A stretch of 9,574 bases of DNA. Origin: a bacterium UBP7_UBA7824 (GTDB taxonomy: Bacteria; UBP7; UBA6624). The translations under genes and the position numbers were made by a program. This document shows positions 3 to 7,255 of this stretch, piece after piece (the first letter of the stretch is position 1; the number at the start of each line of letters is the position of its first letter). The stretch covers positions 28,744 through 38,317 of the forward strand of contig DLTY01000002.1 of NCBI GenBank assembly GCA_002501535.1, read 5' to 3'. The notes below the pieces were generated by a model, which worked only from the letters and a program-made list of their open reading frames with translations, was not told where the DNA came from and made no database searches.

Positions 3-428
3 TCTGGGATGATTGATTACGTCCACCATCAAGCCCTTGAGCAAGATTGGCCATCCATAATCGACATGATCGACAGCGGAAAAAGGGTTGTTGTTTTTAC
101 TAGCCGAGAAGGCGGTTCTGATGACTGGTATCATGATGCCTGGAGGTATGTTTGGGATACAGACTTTTCATACAAAAGCATCGATGACTTTTCATGCTCA
201 AGACTAAGGGGCCCAAAAGATCTTTCAGGCCTTTACAGCATAAATCATTTTTTGACAAACCCACTTGCATCAAAAGCGCTTGCAAAAAAAGCAAACCCGT
301 CTGTTTACGAAAGGGCTGAGAGCTGCTGGATGGAGGCCGGACAAAGGCCTAATTTTATTTTTGTTGATTTTTATTCAGTCGGAAATACCTTGGATGCGGT
401 AAGGAAATTAAATTCGTTACATTTTTAA
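3..428 (+). CDS. PI-PLC-like phosphodiesterase, C-terminal fragment (5' truncated by window edge)
   Basis: The reading frame is open to the window edge and ends at TAA 426-428. The first ATG (position 9) is probably internal, because the sequence starts in the middle of a conserved domain. The visible ~141 residues match the C-terminal half of bacterial PI-PLC-X-like phosphodiesterases. The pattern is W-P-S-I-x-D-M-I-x-S-G-K-R-V-V-V-F, then WYHDAWRYVWDT, then a DFSC-x4-RG segment, an NHFL segment, and finally RPNFIFVDFYSVGN followed by a short helix. Members of this superfamily hydrolyse phosphodiester bonds of lipid head groups or related substrates and are often exported. The catalytic histidines and any signal peptide would lie upstream, outside the window. 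The gene sits 11 nt before a phosphate-type regulator and the pst operon, so I infer a phosphate-scavenging or lipid-remodelling role. The family assignment is fairly sure; the substrate is unknown. Confidence 0.75.
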   Translation, partial: SGMIDYVHHQALEQDWPSIIDMIDSGKRVVVFTSREGGSDDWYHDAWRYVWDTDFSYKSIDDFSCSRLRGPKDLSGLYSINHFLTNPLASKALAKKANPSVYERAESCWMEAGQRPNFIFVDFYSVGNTLDAVRKLNSLHF

Positions 429-439
429 AACAATTTTGA

Positions 440-1402
440 ATGCATGCAGCAAATACAATTGAGAAGATGATGACAGAGGAACGTAAAAACAAGGTTCATT
501 TAAATGTTATCAGATTGGGTAAGCTGGTTGTTTTTGCGTTAAAAAAAGCCCTTAAGGGCAGCACCTTTAACATAGATGCTTTTCTTGCAAAATGCAGAGC
601 AAGAGAGGCTGAAATCAACCTGTTAGAGATGGAAATTGAACAGGATCTCCAGACTTTAATGAGGCCAGAGCTGGAAGATAAAGATTGTCGTCACTTTACA
701 GCGTTATTAAAAATTAATAATGACCTTGAGAGGATTGGCGATTATGCCATGGCGATAGCTAAATATCTTGTTAATGTTGATATGTCAGAAACAGTGAAAA
801 TTGAATCCAAATTTAAAAAACTATCAAAAGCATCTACAGAGATGCTTGAAAGATCCGTTAAGGCGATAGAGCTTGAGGACATCAACCTAGCCAAACAGGT
901 TATCCGTGATGACGATTATGTTGATAAATTGAACAAGGCAATAATCAAGATTCTTTTAGGTAGTAAAAATCCAGATATGGCTTCAGTTGTTTCGCTGGTT
1001 AATTTATGCAGGAGACTGGAAAGGACAGCAGATCATGCAACAAACATAGCAGAAGATTTGGTTTTTTGGATAGAGGGTGATGTCTTGAGGCATCCCACAA
1101 AAAAAAGATCCTTTATGTTTGATGAGATTGAAATATATCCAAACAGTAGAGAGATTAAGATTTCAGAAAAGGTCCATCTTTCTAAAAGTGAATGGGAGAT
1201 ATTCATACACCTTATAGAAAGATCTCCAGATGGTGTTTCTAGAGAGGATCTTATGAAAAATGCTTTAGGTTATGACTCTTCTGTTGAAACTCGAACCATC
1301 GATCAGCATGTGGTTAGGTTGCGAAAAAAACTAGGCCACAAAAAAACACTTTTGAAATCTGTAGCTGGATTCGGTTACAAAGTGGTTAATTCAAAGAATT
1401 AA
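440..1402 (+). CDS. PhoU domain fused to a PhoB/OmpR-type winged-helix DNA-binding domain (one-component phosphate regulator)
   Basis: This 320-residue protein has two parts. Residues ~15-218 form a complete PhoU fold of two three-helix repeats. Each repeat carries the acidic metal-binding ExxxD motif: E97/D101 in DLERIGDYA and E194/D198 in LERTADHATNIAED. After a basic linker of about eight residues, residues ~226-317 are a Trans_reg_C winged helix. It shows the N-terminal strand block, LSKSEWEIFIHLI, the recognition-helix block TRTIDQHVVRLRKKLG (284-299) and the terminal hairpin SVAGFGYKVV. No receiver domain is present, so the protein cannot be switched by aspartyl phosphorylation as PhoB is. 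PhoU proteins normally sense or relay the state of the Pst transporter, so I infer a regulator that couples Pst to transcription directly. The ATG at 440 lacks a clear Shine-Dalgarno sequence; ATGs at 467 and 470 are alternatives that leave both domains intact. It lies 11 nt after the phosphodiesterase gene and 88 nt before pstS. Confidence 0.9.
   Translation: MHAANTIEKMMTEERKNKVHLNVIRLGKLVVFALKKALKGSTFNIDAFLAKCRAREAEINLLEMEIEQDLQTLMRPELEDKDCRHFTALLKINNDLERIGDYAMAIAKYLVNVDMSETVKIESKFKKLSKASTEMLERSVKAIELEDINLAKQVIRDDDYVDKLNKAIIKILLGSKNPDMASVVSLVNLCRRLERTADHATNIAEDLVFWIEGDVLRHPTKKRSFMFDEIEIYPNSREIKISEKVHLSKSEWEIFIHLIERSPDGVSREDLMKNALGYDSSVETRTIDQHVVRLRKKLGHKKTLLKSVAGFGYKVVNSKN
1099..1106 (+). 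other. A8 run at the PhoU/winged-helix junction (possible slippage site)
   Basis: Eight consecutive A residues lie in the linker codons ACA AAA AAA AGA (residues 220-223), which gives an in-frame A-AAA-AAA heptamer. A -1 shift here would reach TGA at 1120-1122 and yield a PhoU-only protein of about 227 residues, close to the 215 residues of the free-standing PhoU downstream. A GAGG at 1087-1090 lies 8 nt upstream, roughly where Shine-Dalgarno-like stimulators sit in bacterial -1 frameshifting. I see no clear downstream stem-loop, and A7 runs occur elsewhere in this gene, so this is speculative. Confidence 0.25.
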
Positions 1403-1403
1403 A

Positions 1404-1422
1404 ACAAATTTGTTACAAGTTT
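1404..1422 (+). promoter_or_regulatory. Candidate operator: ACAAATTT / ACAAGTTT direct repeat, 11-bp period
   Basis: ACAAATTT (1404-1411) and ACAAGTTT (1415-1422) match at 7 of 8 positions and start exactly 11 bp apart. This is the spacing of the two half-sites bound by PhoB/OmpR-type winged helices in Pho boxes. Degenerate third and fourth units may follow in phase at 1426 (AAAAATCA) and 1437 (AGAATACT). The sequence itself does not resemble the CTGTCAT Pho-box consensus. In such A+T-rich DNA a chance repeat cannot be excluded. The best candidate ligand would be the PhoU-wHTH protein encoded just upstream. Confidence 0.35.
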
Positions 1423-1444
1423 TTAAAAAATCACAAAGAATACT

Positions 1445-1465
1445 ATTTAAGATTTCAACTTAAAT
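1445..1465 (+). repeat. Inverted repeat ATTTAAG / CTTAAAT just upstream of the pstS ribosome binding site
   Basis: Two perfectly complementary 7-bp arms (1445-1451 and 1459-1465) flank a 7-nt loop and end 5 nt before the AAGGAG at 1471. All but one of the seven base pairs are A-T, so an RNA hairpin would be weak. It could be a DNA-binding site, or part of the pstS leader. Confidence 0.35.
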
Positions 1466-1470
1466 CTAAA

Positions 1471-1476
1471 AAGGAG
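1471..1476 (+). promoter_or_regulatory. pstS Shine-Dalgarno AAGGAG with unusually long spacing
   Basis: A strong AAGGAG lies 14 nt before the ATG at 1491, which is longer than the usual 5-9 nt. No in-frame ATG, GTG or TTG occurs closer to it, and the signal peptide begins naturally at 1491. The start is therefore kept and the spacing noted as odd. Confidence 0.6.
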
Positions 1477-1490
1477 AATTTACCGCAAAA

Positions 1491-2375
1491 ATGAAATTTA
1501 AACTTTCAAGTTTTTTTATACTATTAGTTTTAGTAGTTACCAGTTGCGCAAGGCCGCAGGATTCTGAAGGAAATGCCGCAGGAAGAAGTTCCTCTGAAGG
1601 TGAGCAAAGTATCCAGGTAACAGGCTCCGACACCATGGTTAACCTAGGCCAAGCATGGGCTGAGGAGTATACAAAAACGAACCCCAACGCATATATTGCT
1701 ATTGGCGGTGGTGGCTCTGGTGTCGGAATCGCTGCTCTGATGAATGGAACTGCTGATCTCGCAAATTCATCTAGAGCAATTAAGGATAGAGAAATCTCGA
1801 AGGCAAATGAACTTGGCTTCGGCATCAAGGAGTATATTGTTGGTTGGGACGGGCTTGCTGTTGTCGTTCACCCAGATAATCCAGTTAACGAATTGTCAAT
1901 TTTGCAAATCGCAGAAATTTTTACTGCAAAAATTACAAATTGGAAAGAGGTTGGTGGTGATGATTTGGAGATTGTTTTGCTGTCACGAGAGGTGAATAGC
2001 GGAACACATGTTTACTTTAAAGAAAATGTCGTTGGGTCCTTGGGCAAAGGTACTGAATTTAGCGAAGAGGCGTTATTGATGCCAAGTAGCCAGGCACTTG
2101 CTGATGAAGTGACAAGTAATACTGGCGCAATTGGTTATTACGGTATGGGTTATTTGTCACCATCGCAAAAGCCAATTAATGTATCTGTGGATGGGGTTAC
2201 TTTTGTTTCACCAACTATAGAAAATGTTCTTAATAAAACATATCCAATTGCAAGACCCCTACACATGTTTTCAAGAGATAGCATTTCTGCAGCAGCACAG
2301 GCTTATATTGAGTGGATAATGGGAGAGGAAGGCCAGGCTGTTGTTGCGGAACAGGATTTTGTTCCCTTAAGCTGA
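1491..2375 (+). CDS. pstS: Phosphate ABC transporter substrate-binding lipoprotein PstS
   Basis: The 294-residue protein captures phosphate outside the inner membrane and delivers it to PstCA. Residues 1-18 form a lipoprotein signal peptide (K2, K4, then a hydrophobic core) with lipobox V-T-S-C at 16-19, so the mature protein is probably anchored through a lipidated Cys19. A polar, low-complexity linker (about 20-40) follows. The PstS/PBP-like domain then shows VTGSDTM (43-49), a glycine-rich IGGGGSG loop (71-77), NSSRAI (92-97), the GWDGLAVVV strand (118-126) and SREVNSGTH (165-173). The TGSD, SR and S-x4-SGT elements are the typical phosphate-contacting segments of the family. Length and motif order are normal. 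It is the first gene of the pst cluster, preceded by an 88-nt control region and followed 31 nt later by pstC. Confidence 0.95.
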   Translation: MKFKLSSFFILLVLVVTSCARPQDSEGNAAGRSSSEGEQSIQVTGSDTMVNLGQAWAEEYTKTNPNAYIAIGGGGSGVGIAALMNGTADLANSSRAIKDREISKANELGFGIKEYIVGWDGLAVVVHPDNPVNELSILQIAEIFTAKITNWKEVGGDDLEIVLLSREVNSGTHVYFKENVVGSLGKGTEFSEEALLMPSSQALADEVTSNTGAIGYYGMGYLSPSQKPINVSVDGVTFVSPTIENVLNKTYPIARPLHMFSRDSISAAAQAYIEWIMGEEGQAVVAEQDFVPLS

Positions 2376-2406: not shown

Positions 2407-3318
2407 GTGAAAAATATAAAATTAAAAAAGCATAAAACAGAGACTTTCAAACAGCCGTTGTCTGAAAAAATAACAGAGGCATGTTTACGTTTTGCAGCAT
2501 GGCTATGCATCTTTTTTATTGCCTGCATTCTTTATTTTTTAGTAAAAGAAAGCGGCGGGGTTTTTTTCAGTGATATCTTTACTATTACAGGTAAATTTTG
2601 GAGACCAATCAGTGAACCTCCAGATTTTGGTGTTTGGGTATTGCTTGCAGGTAGCTTAGCAGTAACGTTAACAGCATCTTTAATCGCAGTGCCCCTGGGG
2701 ATTTGTGCAGCTATTTTCATTGGTGAACTGCTGCCACAGAAATTTAGAGAATTTTTGAAAGTTATAGTTGAATTTCTAGCAGCAATACCTAGTGTTGTTA
2801 TCGGTTTCTTGGGCATGATTATTCTTGCACCATACATTAAGGAAACTTTTGACTTAAAAACAGGCTTAACGGCTTTTTCAGCAGCATTGATGCTTGCATG
2901 GATGGCAATGCCCACAATAGTCAGCTTAACCGAAGACGCTCTCAGAAGTGTACCTGACACTTTAAGAGATGGCGCTCTTGCTCTTGGTGCCACCAAATGG
3001 CAAATGATCACAAGGGTGCTTTTGCCAACAGCAAAACCAGGCATACTTGCCGCAGCAATGCTTGGTGTTGGAAGGGTTATAGGCGAAACAATGGCAGTTT
3101 TAATGATTAGTGGTAATTCTGCCAGGATACCAAGTGGCATCATGGAGCCAGTCAGAACCCTCACTGCGACAATTGCTGCAGAAATGGGAGAAACAGTTAA
3201 GGGCGACGAGCATTATCAAGCCCTTTTTGGGCTGGGTGTTGTTTTGTTTATTATCACATTGTTAATTAATACTGCAGCAGATAGGTTTATTAATAAAAAA
3301 TACACAGAAGAATCATGA
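2407..3318 (+). CDS. pstC: Phosphate ABC transporter permease PstC
   Basis: This 303-residue inner-membrane permease is one half of the phosphate channel. It has a basic cytoplasmic N-terminus and a first membrane helix at about 27-47. A periplasmic segment (about 48-74) follows, then a BPD_transp_1 core with membrane helices around 75-105, 117-140, 155-173, 211-235 and 274-292. The EAA-type coupling loop that docks on the ATPase is seen at about 181-212 (TLRDGALALGATKW ... VLLPTAKPG), followed by GRVIGETMA (222-230), a typical PstC/PstA motif. The start is a GTG at 2407 with only a weak ribosome binding site. No in-frame ATG lies before the first membrane helix, so GTG is preferred. The 3' end overlaps pstA by 4 bp (ATGA), implying coupled translation and 1:1 production. 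Confidence 0.93.
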   Translation: MKNIKLKKHKTETFKQPLSEKITEACLRFAAWLCIFFIACILYFLVKESGGVFFSDIFTITGKFWRPISEPPDFGVWVLLAGSLAVTLTASLIAVPLGICAAIFIGELLPQKFREFLKVIVEFLAAIPSVVIGFLGMIILAPYIKETFDLKTGLTAFSAALMLAWMAMPTIVSLTEDALRSVPDTLRDGALALGATKWQMITRVLLPTAKPGILAAAMLGVGRVIGETMAVLMISGNSARIPSGIMEPVRTLTATIAAEMGETVKGDEHYQALFGLGVVLFIITLLINTAADRFINKKYTEES

Positions 3319-4175
3319 ACTTTAGAAAACAAAATCCAATCAACCAGCAAAAAAGAGCCACTTTCGGCTTAGGGCTCATAACGGCCATTGTGGTTATTCC
3401 GGTTTTATTGATACTGGGTGTTGTTTTTGTTAAGGGTATTTCAGTTATAGATTGGAACTTCCTGACAACCGAACCCACCAATGGTTTAAGAGAGGGTGGG
3501 GTTTTTCCAGCCATAGTTGGAACATTGATCCTGGTTGTTGGAGCTGTGGTTTGGAGCGTGCCTTTTGGTGTGGCTACTGCAATTTATCTTGTTGAATATT
3601 CTCCAAGAAGCCGAGCAGCTAATTTGGTTAGGTTGGCAATCTTAAATTTAGCAGGGGTTCCCAGTGTTGTTTACGGGTTGTTTGGCTTGGGGGTATTTGT
3701 TATAGCCTTAAAATTTGGCGCAAGTATTTTAGCGGGAACCTTAACCCTTGCCCTAATGGGTTTACCAGTAATAGTCACATCAACTGCAGAAGCGTTAAAA
3801 GCTGTTCCTGATAGATTCAGAGAAGCAAGCTTGGCATTGGGCGCTAGCAAATGGCAAACAACCAGGCATGTTGTTCTTCCCAATTCCATACAGGGAATTT
3901 TGACCGGAATAATTTTAGAAATTAGCCGTGCTGGCGGAGAGACTGCACCAATTTTGTTTACCGTAGCAGCTTTTTATTTACCAAGATTGCCACAAAGTAT
4001 TTTTGACCAAGTCATGGCACTCCCAATGCACCTTTTCGCCATTTCAACACAGGTGCCTAATATAGGCTTGGATGTAAGGTACGCTGTTGCCTTAACATTG
4101 TTGTTTTTAGTTTTAGGCATCAATGCAGTCGCAATTTCCATAAGAGCAAAAATTAGGAAAAACAGAATATGGTAA
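3315..4175 (+). CDS. pstA: Phosphate ABC transporter permease PstA
   Basis: This 286-residue permease is the partner of PstC. The first membrane helix (about 16-40) follows a short basic N-terminus. The BPD_transp_1 core starts near residue 64, with helices around 64-92, 103-133, 137-155, 193-220 and 255-277. The EAA loop is at about 165-194 (RFREASLALGASKW ... VVLPNSIQG), and RAGGETAPILF (205-215) is the PstA hallmark. The ATG at 3315 overlaps the pstC stop by 4 bp. The 3' end overlaps pstB1 by 7 bp. Differences between the two EAA loops (TLRDGALALGATKW in PstC, RFREASLALGASKW here) fit a heterodimeric channel that contacts two different ATPases. Length and motifs are normal. Confidence 0.93.
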   Translation: MNFRKQNPINQQKRATFGLGLITAIVVIPVLLILGVVFVKGISVIDWNFLTTEPTNGLREGGVFPAIVGTLILVVGAVVWSVPFGVATAIYLVEYSPRSRAANLVRLAILNLAGVPSVVYGLFGLGVFVIALKFGASILAGTLTLALMGLPVIVTSTAEALKAVPDRFREASLALGASKWQTTRHVVLPNSIQGILTGIILEISRAGGETAPILFTVAAFYLPRLPQSIFDQVMALPMHLFAISTQVPNIGLDVRYAVALTLLFLVLGINAVAISIRAKIRKNRIW

Positions 4176-4918
4176 AAGAAATCATCATTAAATCGTTATC
4201 GGTTTCATATGGAAAAAAACAGGCAATAAGCAACCTGTCTTTATCAGTTGAAAAAAATGAAATATTAGGAATCATTGGCCCCACTACTTCAGGAAAAACA
4301 ACCTTACTTACAGTTTTAAACAGAATGATTGACACAATACCGTCAGCTGTGATTTCTGGCAATGTTTCTATGGGTGATATTGATGTTTTAACAACACCAA
4401 ACATCCATAGTCTTAGGAGGTCTGTTGGGATGATTTTTGCCCTTCCGGTTGCTTTGCCCATGACTATTAGGGAAAATGTTGAATATGGCCCAAAAATGGC
4501 TGGAGAGGCAAAAGGAGAGTTGGAGACAAGGGTTGAAGAAAGTCTTGTGCAGGCTGGATTATGGGATGAGGTGCATGACAGGCTGGACACCCCAGCATTA
4601 AAGCTTTCAGGCGGCCAGCAACAAAGACTTTGCATCGCAAGGGCCTTAGCCCTAAAGCCAAAGGTTTTATTGCTCGATGAACCTTGCTCGGGTCTCGATC
4701 CAATTTCAACATCCAGAATAGAGGATACATTGGGTCAATTAAAAAATGATATGACTATCATTTTGGTCACAAACAACCCTCATCAAGCTGCCCGTGTTGC
4801 TCATCGAACAGCTTTTATGCTTAAGGGTGAGCTTATCGAGCTTGCTGATACAGACACACTGTTCACAAATCCTGTAGACAATAGAACAAAAGAATACATT
4901 GAAGGTAAATTTGGATAA
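4169..4918 (+). CDS. pstB: Phosphate ABC transporter ATPase, first copy (PstB1), with degenerate Q-loop and switch histidine
   Basis: This 249-residue cytoplasmic ATPase is of the PstB type. Walker A is GPTTSGKTT (37-45), the signature is LSGGQQQRLCIAR (146-158), Walker B is VLLLDEP with catalytic Glu171, and the D-loop is SGLDP (174-178). Two residues that are nearly invariant in active ABC ATPases are replaced. The Q-loop Gln of the usual FQ-x-P-N-P-F-P motif is Ala91 (FALPVALP, GCC at 4439-4441). The switch His of VTHN is Asn202 (VTNN, AAC at 4772-4774). The ATP site built on this subunit's Walker A should therefore couple and hydrolyse poorly, while its intact LSGGQ can complete the site of a partner. 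It overlaps pstA by 7 bp and pstB2 by 1 bp (TAATG). I infer an obligate heterodimer with the second copy. Confidence 0.92.
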   Translation: MVKEIIIKSLSVSYGKKQAISNLSLSVEKNEILGIIGPTTSGKTTLLTVLNRMIDTIPSAVISGNVSMGDIDVLTTPNIHSLRRSVGMIFALPVALPMTIRENVEYGPKMAGEAKGELETRVEESLVQAGLWDEVHDRLDTPALKLSGGQQQRLCIARALALKPKVLLLDEPCSGLDPISTSRIEDTLGQLKNDMTIILVTNNPHQAARVAHRTAFMLKGELIELADTDTLFTNPVDNRTKEYIEGKFG

Positions 4919-5682
4919 TGACAAAAACTCTAATTAAATCTGAAAAATTCAATTTGTGGTATGGTGACTTTCAAGCTTTAATTGATATAGATCTCGACAT
5001 ACCAGAAAATCAAGTTACAGCTGTTGTAGGGCCTTCAGGGTGTGGAAAAAGCACTTTTGTTCGTTGCATTAACAGGCTAAATGATCAAATAAACACAGTT
5101 AGCACCAAAGGTTCTATTTTTATTGATGGGACAGACATTTATCAACATACGGCTGATGAGGTTGTTGGACTTAGGCGATCTGTAGGGATGGTTTTTCAGA
5201 GACCTAACCCATTTCCGCTTTCTGTTTTTGAAAATGTTGCTTTTGGCTTAAAGACAAATCCCATGGTTCCTGATGGTCAAACCATAAAAAAGGAAGTTAA
5301 CAAAGCGCTACAAGCAGTAGGGTTACTTGAGGATCTAGACGGTAACCTTACGAGACCGGGAACCAGTCTTTCTTTAGAGCAGCAGCAAAGATTATGTATT
5401 GCAAGATGTCTGCCGACAAGGCCAAAAATATTGCTTATGGATGAACCTTGTTCAGCATTAGATCCAAGCGATACCGATAAGGTAGAGGAGCTCATAAGGG
5501 AATTAAAGAAAGACTATACCGTTGTGATAGTGACCCACAACTTACAACAAGCTGGCAGGATTTCTGATCAATCTGTATTATTCCATTTGGGCAAAATTAT
5601 TGAAACAGCACCAACAACGGATTTCTTCCAGAACCCAAAAGAAAAAAGAACAAGAGACTTTATTACAGGTCGATATGGCTAG
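4918..5682 (+). CDS. pstB: Phosphate ABC transporter ATPase, second copy (PstB2), with degenerate signature motif
   Basis: This 254-residue PstB-type ATPase has textbook nucleotide-site residues. Walker A is GPSGCGKST (38-46), the Q-loop is VFQRPNPFP with Gln94, Walker B is ILLMDEP with Glu176, the D-loop is SALDP, and the switch residue is His207 in VTHNLQQAG. The signature that should read LSGGQ is instead LSLEQ (151-155; codons at 5368-5382), with both glycines lost, while the flanking QQRLCIAR is intact. No insertion or deletion is needed in the alignment, so a frameshift is unlikely. Its own Walker site can be completed only by a partner with an intact signature, which PstB1 has. The start ATG (4918) overlaps the pstB1 stop by 1 bp. 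It is followed 9 nt later by phoU. Confidence 0.93.
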   Translation: MTKTLIKSEKFNLWYGDFQALIDIDLDIPENQVTAVVGPSGCGKSTFVRCINRLNDQINTVSTKGSIFIDGTDIYQHTADEVVGLRRSVGMVFQRPNPFPLSVFENVAFGLKTNPMVPDGQTIKKEVNKALQAVGLLEDLDGNLTRPGTSLSLEQQQRLCIARCLPTRPKILLMDEPCSALDPSDTDKVEELIRELKKDYTVVIVTHNLQQAGRISDQSVLFHLGKIIETAPTTDFFQNPKEKRTRDFITGRYG

Positions 5683-5691
5683 GAGTTAAAT

Positions 5692-6339
5692 ATGACTAAA
5701 AGATTAACAAAACTTATTGATAAAATCAAAGTAAAAACCTTGGCAATGGCTCAAGATGTTTGCAACTCAATGGATGATGCAATGGAAGCAATTTTAAATT
5801 CTAGCGATGATAAATATCAAGCAATGAAACAACGAGAAGATAATATTGATTCGCTAGAAGTTGAGATAGAAGAATCCATACTTGGCACCATTGCTGTCCA
5901 TCAACCTGTTGCAGATGATTTAAGAATCCTTGCAGCAATGTTGAAGATTACAAACGACTTAGAAAGAATTGGTGATTATGCGATCAAGATTGCTCAAAGG
6001 GGCAAGGATATTGACGCTAACTTGATCAAGAGCATCAAAACCCCTTTGTCTAAATTGGGAACATCTTCAATCCAGATGATTAAAGATGCAGTACAGGCTT
6101 TAGACGCAGGAGATGCAGATTTAGCTCAGAAGGTTAGAGATGCTGATGACCAGGTTGATGACCTGAACAAATCCCTCATAAAGGAATTATCCAAAATCGA
6201 TGATGATGACTTTGAGTCCTTGGTTGCACTGGTTTCAATATCCAGAAGATTCGAAAGAGCTGCTGATCATGCAACAAACATAGCAGAGGATGTTTTGTTC
6301 TGGCTTGAAGGCAGGATATTCAGACACGGTGAAACCTAA
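5692..6339 (+). CDS. phoU: Phosphate transport regulator PhoU (stand-alone)
   Basis: This 215-residue protein has standard PhoU length and two helical repeats. Repeat 1 carries HQPVADDLRILAAMLKI followed by NDLERIGDYA, with E91/D95. Repeat 2 carries RRFERAADHATNIAED, with E188/D192, and ends in FWLEGRIFRH just before the C-terminus. These acidic clusters bind metal ions in characterised PhoU proteins. PhoU normally restrains phosphate uptake and mediates Pst-to-PhoR signalling; here no PhoR is encoded nearby. AGGAG at 5681-5685, spaced 6 nt from the ATG, is a good ribosome binding site that overlaps the pstB2 stop. It is a paralogue of the PhoU part of the 440-1402 gene: both contain ADHATNIAED and a similar VRD/IRD-x-D segment before repeat 2. 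A hetero-oligomer of the two is possible. Confidence 0.94.
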   Translation: MTKRLTKLIDKIKVKTLAMAQDVCNSMDDAMEAILNSSDDKYQAMKQREDNIDSLEVEIEESILGTIAVHQPVADDLRILAAMLKITNDLERIGDYAIKIAQRGKDIDANLIKSIKTPLSKLGTSSIQMIKDAVQALDAGDADLAQKVRDADDQVDDLNKSLIKELSKIDDDDFESLVALVSISRRFERAADHATNIAEDVLFWLEGRIFRHGET

Positions 6340-6344
6340 ACCAG

Positions 6345-6370
6345 CACTTGGGCATAAAATTGCCTAAGTG
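6345..6370 (+). promoter_or_regulatory. Hairpin in the phoU/deacetylase gap that includes the GTG start codon
   Basis: CACTTGGGCA (6345-6354) and TGCCTAAGTG (6361-6370) pair over 10 bp with one G-U, around the loop TAAAAT. The last three bases of the 3' arm are the proposed GTG start of the deacetylase gene. A-rich sequence follows, not a T tract, so it is not a standard intrinsic terminator on this strand. On the other strand the T run precedes the stem, which is also wrong for a terminator. It may mark the 3' end of the pst transcript or limit translation of the next gene. Confidence 0.5.
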
Positions 6371-7255
6371 AAAAAAGTTCGTTATTTTCAAAGACCATCA
6401 GAGTATTGGAAGGATCATGTTTTTCCAATGCGAAAAATGGATTTGTTGAAAAAGCGAATCGAAGAATCATTTTCAATTGATTTTGTTGAGCCTGACAGTT
6501 TGCCAGAAGGCGCAATCGCACTTACGCATCACCGCAATTTTATAAATCGTATACATTCGTATTTTGACAATCCCGAAGCTTCCTATGGTGAATTTGAAGC
6601 AAGATGTGACAGCTGGGTTTTTGAAAACGAATGTAAGGCGGTTGCCGGCACTTTGTCTGCATGTAGGGATGCCTTGTTACAGGGTTGGGGTTTTAATATT
6701 GGTGGCGGATTGCATCATTCTTTCCCTGATCACGGTGAAGGTTTTTGCATTATCAATGATATTGCAATTTCAATTAACCAACTTATCAAAGAAGGCAAGA
6801 TCCATAATGCAGCCGTAGTGGATCTTGATGTGCATCAAGGCAATGGTACGGCTGTTTGTTTCCAAGATAGCCCAAATGTCAAAACAATCTCATTGCATCA
6901 ACAGCACAATTATCCATCCTGGAAACCAAAATCAGATTTAGACATTGGTTTAGATGACGGAATAGGTGATAGCGTTTACCTGCAGCATCTATCAACTGCA
7001 CTTGATTGGCTTTCAACACAGGACAAACCCGACTTGGTTTTATTTTTAGCCGGCGCTGATCCTTATCGAAAAGACCAGCTTGGAGGGCTTGCGCTTACGA
7101 AAGCGGGCTTAGGCTCAAGAGATAGGCTTGTAGTAGAGTGGTGCAAAAATAACAATTGCCCAGTAGCGATTGTTTTGGCTGGTGGCTACGCTAAGGATGT
7201 AAATGACGTTGTTGATATACACTTTAATACATTCAAATGTTTAATGGAGGTTTAA
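6368..7255 (+). CDS. Histone deacetylase superfamily (class IV/AcuC-like) zinc amidohydrolase
   Basis: This 295-residue arginase/deacetylase-fold protein should remove acetyl or acyl groups from amines using a zinc ion. The catalytic set appears complete: tandem His116-His117 in GGGLHHSFPD, then GEGFCIIND (123-131), metal ligands Asp154 and His156 in VVDLDVHQGNG, Asp231 in AGADPY, the D-x-LGGL-x-LT segment (236-244), and Tyr274 in LAGGY as the likely transition-state tyrosine. The HHSFPD and AGGY forms look closer to class IV (HDAC11-like) proteins than to AcuC. The GTG at 6368 is chosen because the conserved N-terminal block (YFQRPSEY ... HVFPMRKMDLL) starts right after it; the next ATG (6428) would cut this off. 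No clear ribosome binding site is seen. It is followed after 1 nt by the CBM9-like gene. The substrate is unknown; acetylated polyamines, sugars or proteins are all possible. Confidence 0.88.
   Translation: MKKVRYFQRPSEYWKDHVFPMRKMDLLKKRIEESFSIDFVEPDSLPEGAIALTHHRNFINRIHSYFDNPEASYGEFEARCDSWVFENECKAVAGTLSACRDALLQGWGFNIGGGLHHSFPDHGEGFCIINDIAISINQLIKEGKIHNAAVVDLDVHQGNGTAVCFQDSPNVKTISLHQQHNYPSWKPKSDLDIGLDDGIGDSVYLQHLSTALDWLSTQDKPDLVLFLAGADPYRKDQLGGLALTKAGLGSRDRLVVEWCKNNNCPVAIVLAGGYAKDVNDVVDIHFNTFKCLMEV

Follow-up and report, generated by a model that had tools for sequence, protein, structure and literature searches.

Phosphate signalling and PhoU proteins joined to DNA-binding domains

The joining of PhoU to a DNA-binding domain is not new as an idea. 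The archaeal protein HVO_2374 holds both in one polypeptide, is syntenic with a pst operon and is reported as a predicted regulator of inorganic phosphate uptake (PMC6267482). Thermococcus TK2245 is listed as a SpoVT/AbrB family protein containing a PhoU domain (PMC7325993), and the PhoU-like proteins of P. furiosus are counted among transcription factors (PMC6316755). Here we describe a bacterial PhoU-winged-helix fusion, encoded directly upstream of a pst cluster in a 9,574-nucleotide stretch (the window; contig DLTY01000002.1, positions 28,744 to 38,317, forward strand) of a metagenome-assembled genome (MAG), bacterium UBP7_UBA7824. Both archaeal proteins differ from it in their DNA-binding domains, which is N-terminal in HVO_2374 and of the SpoVT/AbrB type in TK2245, whereas the fusion carries an OmpR-type winged helix (Trans_reg_C) at its C-terminus. 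We consider it reasonably probable that the fusion is a one-component phosphate switch that replaces the PhoR-PhoB relay in its lineage, its phosphate response and its DNA binding both being predicted.

In E. coli, PhoU is described as the link between PstB and PhoR (PMC4423584). In M. smegmatis, purified PhoU1 is reported to shift the kinase SenX3 toward phosphatase activity when phosphate is present, and the study concludes that Pst is not directly involved (PMC12301784). The output side also has described counterparts. PhoB, like other OmpR/PhoB response regulators, shares the winged-helix effector domain with the fusion but has a receiver with a phospho-acceptor where the fusion has PhoU. 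ToxR/CadC-like regulators combine an OmpR-type DNA-binding domain and a non-receiver sensor in one protein (PMC5430869); unlike the fusion, whose model shows two soluble domains, the DNA-binding one at the C-terminus, they are membrane proteins with a periplasmic sensor. Such domains are reported to work without a phosphorylated receiver in ChxR (PMC3960148) and in CadC (PMC5430869). The first-pass annotation of the window knew of no characterised example. This stands for Bacteria, since a literature search, mostly of openly readable papers, turned up no characterised bacterial PhoU-winged-helix protein, but PhoU with a DNA-binding domain had been predicted earlier in Archaea. What appears new is a bacterial fusion with PhoB-type output beside pst in a lineage that seems to be without PhoR-PhoB, of which there was none in the literature searched.

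Architecture of the fusion protein

The first-pass annotation had read the protein as PhoU plus Trans_reg_C without a receiver, with both ExxxD metal motifs and a very short basic linker, and each of these features is borne out. Pfam finds PhoU in two stretches (105.3 bits, cut-off 23.5, E 2.1e-30) and Trans_reg_C at residues 243-314 (61.5 bits, E 8.3e-17; residues are counted from ATG 440), and these E-values rule out chance. Response_reg, the receiver domain with its phospho-acceptor Asp, is not among the Pfam matches of the protein. In NCBIfam, the nearest model for the N-terminal part is the PhoU model TIGR02135, at 120.8 bits. Because this lies below the cut-off of 130.25, the fusion holds a PhoU domain yet is not classed as a PhoU equivalog. 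The top NCBIfam match of the C-terminal part is a PhoB model, at 56.6 bits, far under a cut-off set for the whole protein.

Each half is modelled with confidence and matches solved structures, of PhoU and of the PhoB effector domain respectively. In the model, the PhoU helices and the winged helix cover residues 2-315 with only the short linker (PTKKRS, about 6 residues) between them. The predicted local distance difference score falls below 50 over at least 3 consecutive residues only at 218-222. The motif residues E97, D101, E194 and D198 are kept in all four fusion proteins compared, as are the neighbouring K91, N93, N94, D95, R98, R195, N202, E205 and D206; R285, H290 and R295 of the predicted recognition helix are kept too. 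The true start is probably ATG 467 or 470, because ATG 440 is out of frame in the DNA of the sister genome and the relatives P0002 and P0003 align from about M10/M11.

Conservation and distribution

Three genomes of the phylum are present in the collection searched. The genomes compared here are the window's own (G000, 62% complete, a few stretches of which read N), a sister MAG of the same genus (G001, record PBAU01000002.1, 86% complete) and a member of the family's other genus (G002, 78% complete). The fusion is 97% identical in G001, with the same neighbours. The protein collection places it in a 99% cluster that has 42 member sequences. Relatives at 73% identity make up two more clusters, P0002 (4 members) and P0003 (13 members). 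Both halves are under purifying selection: between G000 and G001, the PhoU part has a ratio of non-synonymous to synonymous substitution rates (dN/dS) of 0.048 and the linker plus winged helix one of 0.061, within the range of eight other genes compared (0.005-0.074). It is hardly credible that two genes were joined by an error of assembly or annotation. The data come from MAGs only, but the same junction recurs in two of them and in all three protein clusters, and the alignment is gap-free, with low dN/dS, on both of its sides.

The first-pass annotation had suggested mapping this architecture by domain search. PhoU and Trans_reg_C occur together in 6 of the best 120 of 6,859 matches, a lower bound given that the protein searches score at most 7,999 candidates and provide a floor, not a census. 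Three of the six belong to the window's clade. P0004 and P0029, which show 29% identity in the alignment with the fusion, have the same domain order and no receiver. P0010 has a related order but keeps the receiver: its 452 residues comprise PhoU, a receiver and a winged helix, so that PhoU is here joined to a complete PhoB-type regulator. A profile search finds both domains in 5 of the 120 matches listed. With the winged-helix region alone as query, 5 of 35 candidates match, three from the window's clade and two ordinary response regulators. At the genome level, a match over both halves is seen only in G000 and G001 in the rows listed, among 116 genomes.

Apparent absence of a PhoR-PhoB pair from the genus

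The first-pass annotation had seen no phoR or phoB in the window, and Pfam and NCBIfam searches of the window's open reading frames (ORFs) find none either. Genome searches of G000 yield one Trans_reg_C protein, the fusion itself, and one receiver, in an HD-GYP protein. Its two HATPase matches are a kinase beside this receiver and a protein that reads as GyrB. The same kinase/HD-GYP pair can be read in G001. With contigs 12 and 16 of G001 set aside (see below), the searches show no second Trans_reg_C protein in either genome, and in each a single histidine kinase, the one beside the HD-GYP receiver. The apparent absence of phoR and phoB is thereby supported for the contigs assigned to the genus, in MAGs that are 62% and 86% complete, and loss of PhoR-PhoB in this lineage appears likely.

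A canonical pair elsewhere in the genome had been named as the finding that would speak against the proposal. The only OmpR-type pair detected in the two MAGs lies on contig 16 of G001, where the regulator is accompanied by a HAMP kinase. That this pair is native and is the phosphate two-component system of the genus seems very improbable, although it was binned in the same MAG and an ORF reading as a glycerophosphodiesterase, which speaks for a native contig, lies two genes away. In NCBIfam, the regulator of the pair matches OmpR best and the kinase matches ArsS-type, RstB and CpxA models best, not PhoB or PhoR, and the 13 ORFs listed for the contig include no recognisable pst or phoU gene. 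Moreover, the dnaA of contig 16 is a second copy, 28-30% identical to the dnaA common to G000 and G001. Of the pieces compared, contig 12 is the closest to contig 16 in composition, and a second dnaN and a second gyrB can be read on it. The fusion lies on contig 2 of G001 together with the genus's own dnaA and gyrB. On this evidence, contigs 12 and 16 are treated as contamination, which they probably are.

Composition by itself would not decide whether contig 16 is foreign. In tetranucleotide use it correlates with contig 12 at r 0.75 and 0.65. For eight pieces of contigs 2 and 3, each of about 20 kb, r is 0.34-0.58, and for a 7-kb piece of contig 3 it is 0.29. However, r reaches 0.61 for one piece of the contig that holds the window, and the 7-kb piece correlates at only 0.27-0.50 with the contig 2 and 3 pieces of its own genome. 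Contig 16 also encodes Cys-rich proteins that read as dockerin-like.

The sister-genus locus and the origin of the fusion

In G002, the genes read as pstS-pstC-pstA-pstB1-pstB2-phoU are followed by a convergent kinase (HisKA and HATPase, 416 residues) and regulator (receiver plus winged helix, 223 residues); no fusion was found in this genome, at 78% completeness. The kinase scores best in NCBIfam with the PhoR model, at 88.4 bits (cut-off 334.2), followed by PnpS at 79.3. The best scores of the regulator are 152.0 with PmrA, 146.3 with RpaB, 146.2 with the Bacteroidetes PhoB model and 145.7 with PhoB. All of these are below cut-off, and the pair is not certified as PhoR-PhoB; by its scores and its position we name it PhoR-PhoB-like. 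It adjoins pst-phoU in G002 and is absent from the pst locus of G000 and G001. In both genera, the neighbourhood of pst includes an M24 peptidase gene, a gene for what is presumably a urocanate-hydratase-like protein and a gene of the deacetylase family (the G002 copies named by reading). The same locus thus has the pair at its side in one genus and the fusion in the other.

The G002 regulator is matched at E 1e-20 in 91 of the 116 genomes, and the window's genome is not among them; the match in G001 must be to contig 16, which holds the sole receiver-plus-winged-helix protein there. PhoB-type regulators are therefore common, but the family is thinly sampled and either state, pair or fusion, may be the older. 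A 232-residue protein of G002 (contig 74, L058:9300-9998) also has a Trans_reg_C domain and no receiver above threshold; its neighbours read as membrane-reductase and chaperone subunits.

In a PhoU tree of 59 rows, whose bootstraps are unsettled, the PhoU halves of the fusions, the stand-alone PhoUs of the genus and the PhoU of G002 cluster together as a group of 7 (100/98), in which a long stem of 2.07 changes per column leads to the fusions. The stand-alone phoU, together with that of G002, is the nearest paralogue of the fusion's PhoU half, and the simplest reading is that phoU was duplicated and one copy then acquired an output domain. The family's own regulator may have been the source of that domain. 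In the winged-helix tree (41 rows, 110 columns, bootstraps likewise unsettled), placing the fusion together with the G002 regulator improves on the free tree by 1.10 log units, with a p-value of 0.53 in the approximately unbiased test (p-AU). The fusion shares rare residues with the G002 regulator in 8 of 98 columns and with L086 in 10 of 99, which does not single out G002.

P0004 and P0029 probably represent a second, independent PhoU-winged-helix lineage. A single ancestry of both kinds of fusion is disfavoured when the PhoU halves are compared (p-AU 0.030) and is not rejected for the winged helices (0.168).

A proposed phosphate switch and the evidence weighed

The replacement of the relay is proposed because the other genus has the pair beside pst, none was found in the contigs assigned to this genus and the fusion stands before pstS. 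The position directly upstream of the pst operon, already noted at first pass, is confirmed, the gene ending 88 bp before pstS. A fuller version, which we put forward with some hesitation, is that the lineage discarded PhoR and PhoB, and that the duplicated PhoU with its winged helix senses intracellular phosphate and controls pst alone. The PhoU half would sense phosphate through its metal site and would probably dimerise with itself or with the stand-alone PhoU, the latter keeping the contact with the transporter. In a phosphate-rich cell, the PhoU half would constrain the winged helices to a non-binding geometry. When phosphate falls, these would be released, bind as a dimer between the fusion gene and pstS, and switch on pst. 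The least certain step is the sign: an activator in low phosphate, not a repressor in high phosphate, is chosen by analogy with PhoB. The PhoU half is favoured as the sensor because its metal motifs are intact and no partner kinase was found.

The interval between the fusion and pstS offers a candidate binding region. Its first 64 of 88 bases are identical between G000 and G001, while the last 24 hold 7 differences, and the conserved part fits a promoter or operator. For comparison, the 28-base gap after phoU is also unchanged, and the 31-base pstS-pstC gap has 2 differences. Within 1400-1490, the best repeat at a spacing of 10-12 or 20-23 bp is a 7/8 match at 11 bp. No Pho-box operator is claimed, such a repeat being in our judgement expected in AT-rich DNA. 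In a scan of 300-1600, terminator-like sites number 2 (shuffle mean 0.8), one at 334-350 on the plus strand inside the upstream gene and the other on the minus strand inside the fusion.

Several observations weigh against the proposed switch. The repeat just mentioned (ACAAATTT/ACAAGTTT at 1404/1415, 11-bp spacing) is, by our own estimate, at chance level for AT-rich DNA, and the scan of 300-1600 found no sigma-70-like site, against a shuffle mean of 3.3. Where 75% of 24 sampled winged helices have a wing arginine, the fusion has A or P, and its winged helix could not be placed as a descendant of the family's PhoB-like regulator. In E. coli, PhoU without PstSCAB is reported not to restore signalling, nor did PstSCAB alone (PMC4423584). 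Given the completeness of G000 (62%) and G001 (86%), an unlinked PhoR-PhoB pair could lie outside both assemblies; if their gaps are independent, the chance of missing it twice is about 0.38 x 0.14, or about 5%. Finally, of 46 invariant positions defined on 31 sampled canonical PhoU rows, 16 are altered in at least one of the four fusions.

The incompleteness of the MAGs bears on the alternative that a canonical PhoR-PhoB pair in the unassembled part controls pst and that the fusion is auxiliary. The PhoR-PhoB-like pair of the family's other genus is in its favour as well. But that pair adjoins pst-phoU in G002, where the corresponding locus of G000 and G001 has none, and outside contigs 12 and 16 each genome shows no second Trans_reg_C protein and one kinase, beside the HD-GYP receiver. 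We hold this alternative to be improbable.

The altered PhoU positions concern the transporter contact. The window's stand-alone PhoU, which has no DNA-binding domain and was absent from the first-pass annotation, has 7 of the 46 altered, as against 16 in the fusions. Ten of the 16 fall in residues 68-83 (window 641-688), around helix 2 and the loop before helix 3, whereas R84 is kept. Because Q77, P78, A80 and L83 are altered in all four fusions and kept in the stand-alone copy, the latter may do the Pst docking. The earlier suggestion that the fusion docks on Pst through its own PhoU is accordingly less supported.

The same changes, with the long stem of 2.07, would suit a regulator in which some PhoU functions may be lost: DNA binding would be constitutive or set by protein level, and the PhoU half would be a dimerisation module or titrate the stand-alone PhoU, with no phosphate sensing. 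PhoU of S. aureus is reported to homodimerise (PMC11705898), and ChxR, an atypical OmpR/PhoB regulator, is reported to act without phosphorylation (PMC3960148). However, the ExxxD motifs and their neighbours, needless for a mere scaffold, are kept in all four fusions, and dN/dS is 0.048 in the PhoU half. We regard this explanation as rather unlikely, and return to the phosphate switch as the reading that we prefer.

The pst cluster and neighbouring genes

The features of the window are collected in Table 1. Both ATPases of the cluster have altered motifs, in positions that we take to be the Walker A, Q-loop and H-loop. PstB1 has GPTTSGKT as Walker A, Ala for the Q-loop Gln and Asn for the H-loop His, with LSGGQ intact. 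PstB2 is normal at these three and has LSLEQ instead of LSGGQ. The same complementary defects are found in G001 and G002. In asymmetric ABC exporters, altered motifs are gathered in one ATP site; in a PstB1/PstB2 heterodimer, all of the changes would likewise fall in one site.

Table 1. Features of the window, in window coordinates
Feature	Position	Strand	Basis
PhoU-winged-helix fusion gene	440..1402	+	320-residue open frame; conserved start probably ATG 467 or 470
First PhoU repeat of fusion	509..766	+	G000 C15:29252-29509
First ExxxD metal motif, E97-D101	728..742	+	sequence
Second PhoU repeat of fusion	815..1057	+	G000 C15:29558-29800
Second ExxxD metal motif, E194-D198	1019..1033	+	sequence
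Short basic linker, residues 219-224	1094..1111	+	sequence and model
OmpR/PhoB-type winged-helix DNA-binding domain (Trans_reg_C)	1166..1381	+	Pfam; structure match to PhoB effector domain
Predicted recognition helix, residues 285-304	1292..1351	+	structure model
Fusion-pstS intergenic region, candidate operator/promoter	1403..1490	+	conservation; function inferred
pstS, phosphate-binding protein	1491..2375	+	TIGR02136, 238.4 bits (cut-off 206.6)
pstC, permease	2407..3318	+	TIGR02138, 283.6 bits (cut-off 196.45)
pstA, permease	3315..4175	+	TIGR00974, 280.3 bits (cut-off 193.45)
pstB1, ATPase	4169..4918	+	best match TIGR00972, 303.2 bits, below cut-off 343.2
pstB2, ATPase	4918..5682	+	best match TIGR00972, 332.9 bits, below cut-off 343.2
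Stand-alone phoU	5692..6339	+	TIGR02135, 161.3 bits (cut-off 130.25)

The gene directly upstream of the fusion (window 3-428; full length L006:9184-9984) is separated from it by 11 bp. A phospholipid phosphodiesterase beside a phosphate regulator would fit phosphorus scavenging; a phospholipase assignment was rejected, since the gene product matches PI-PLC-X only below threshold (E 0.011) and has no relative in the PDB at E 1. After phoU lies a histone-deacetylase-family gene (6368-7255; Hist_deacetyl, 171.5 bits). A gene that reads as similar is found in G002, divergent to pstS (L057:4316-5221).

Meaning for phosphate sensing

The signal that PhoU senses, and the way it is passed on, are debated: the E. 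coli data tie PhoU to Pst and PhoR, and recent ones from M. smegmatis point to sensing of intracellular phosphate by PhoU. Covalent linkage of PhoU to a DNA-binding domain would turn this question into a direct assay on one purified protein, of whether its affinity for DNA responds to phosphate, metal or PstB. G002, with its PhoR-PhoB-like pair at the same locus, is a natural comparison, and the stand-alone phoU of the cluster offers a way to split the sensing role from the transporter role. If the fuller version of the proposal holds, the fusion would be a natural demonstration that the primary sensing of phosphate can lie in PhoU itself and in neither the kinase nor the transporter.
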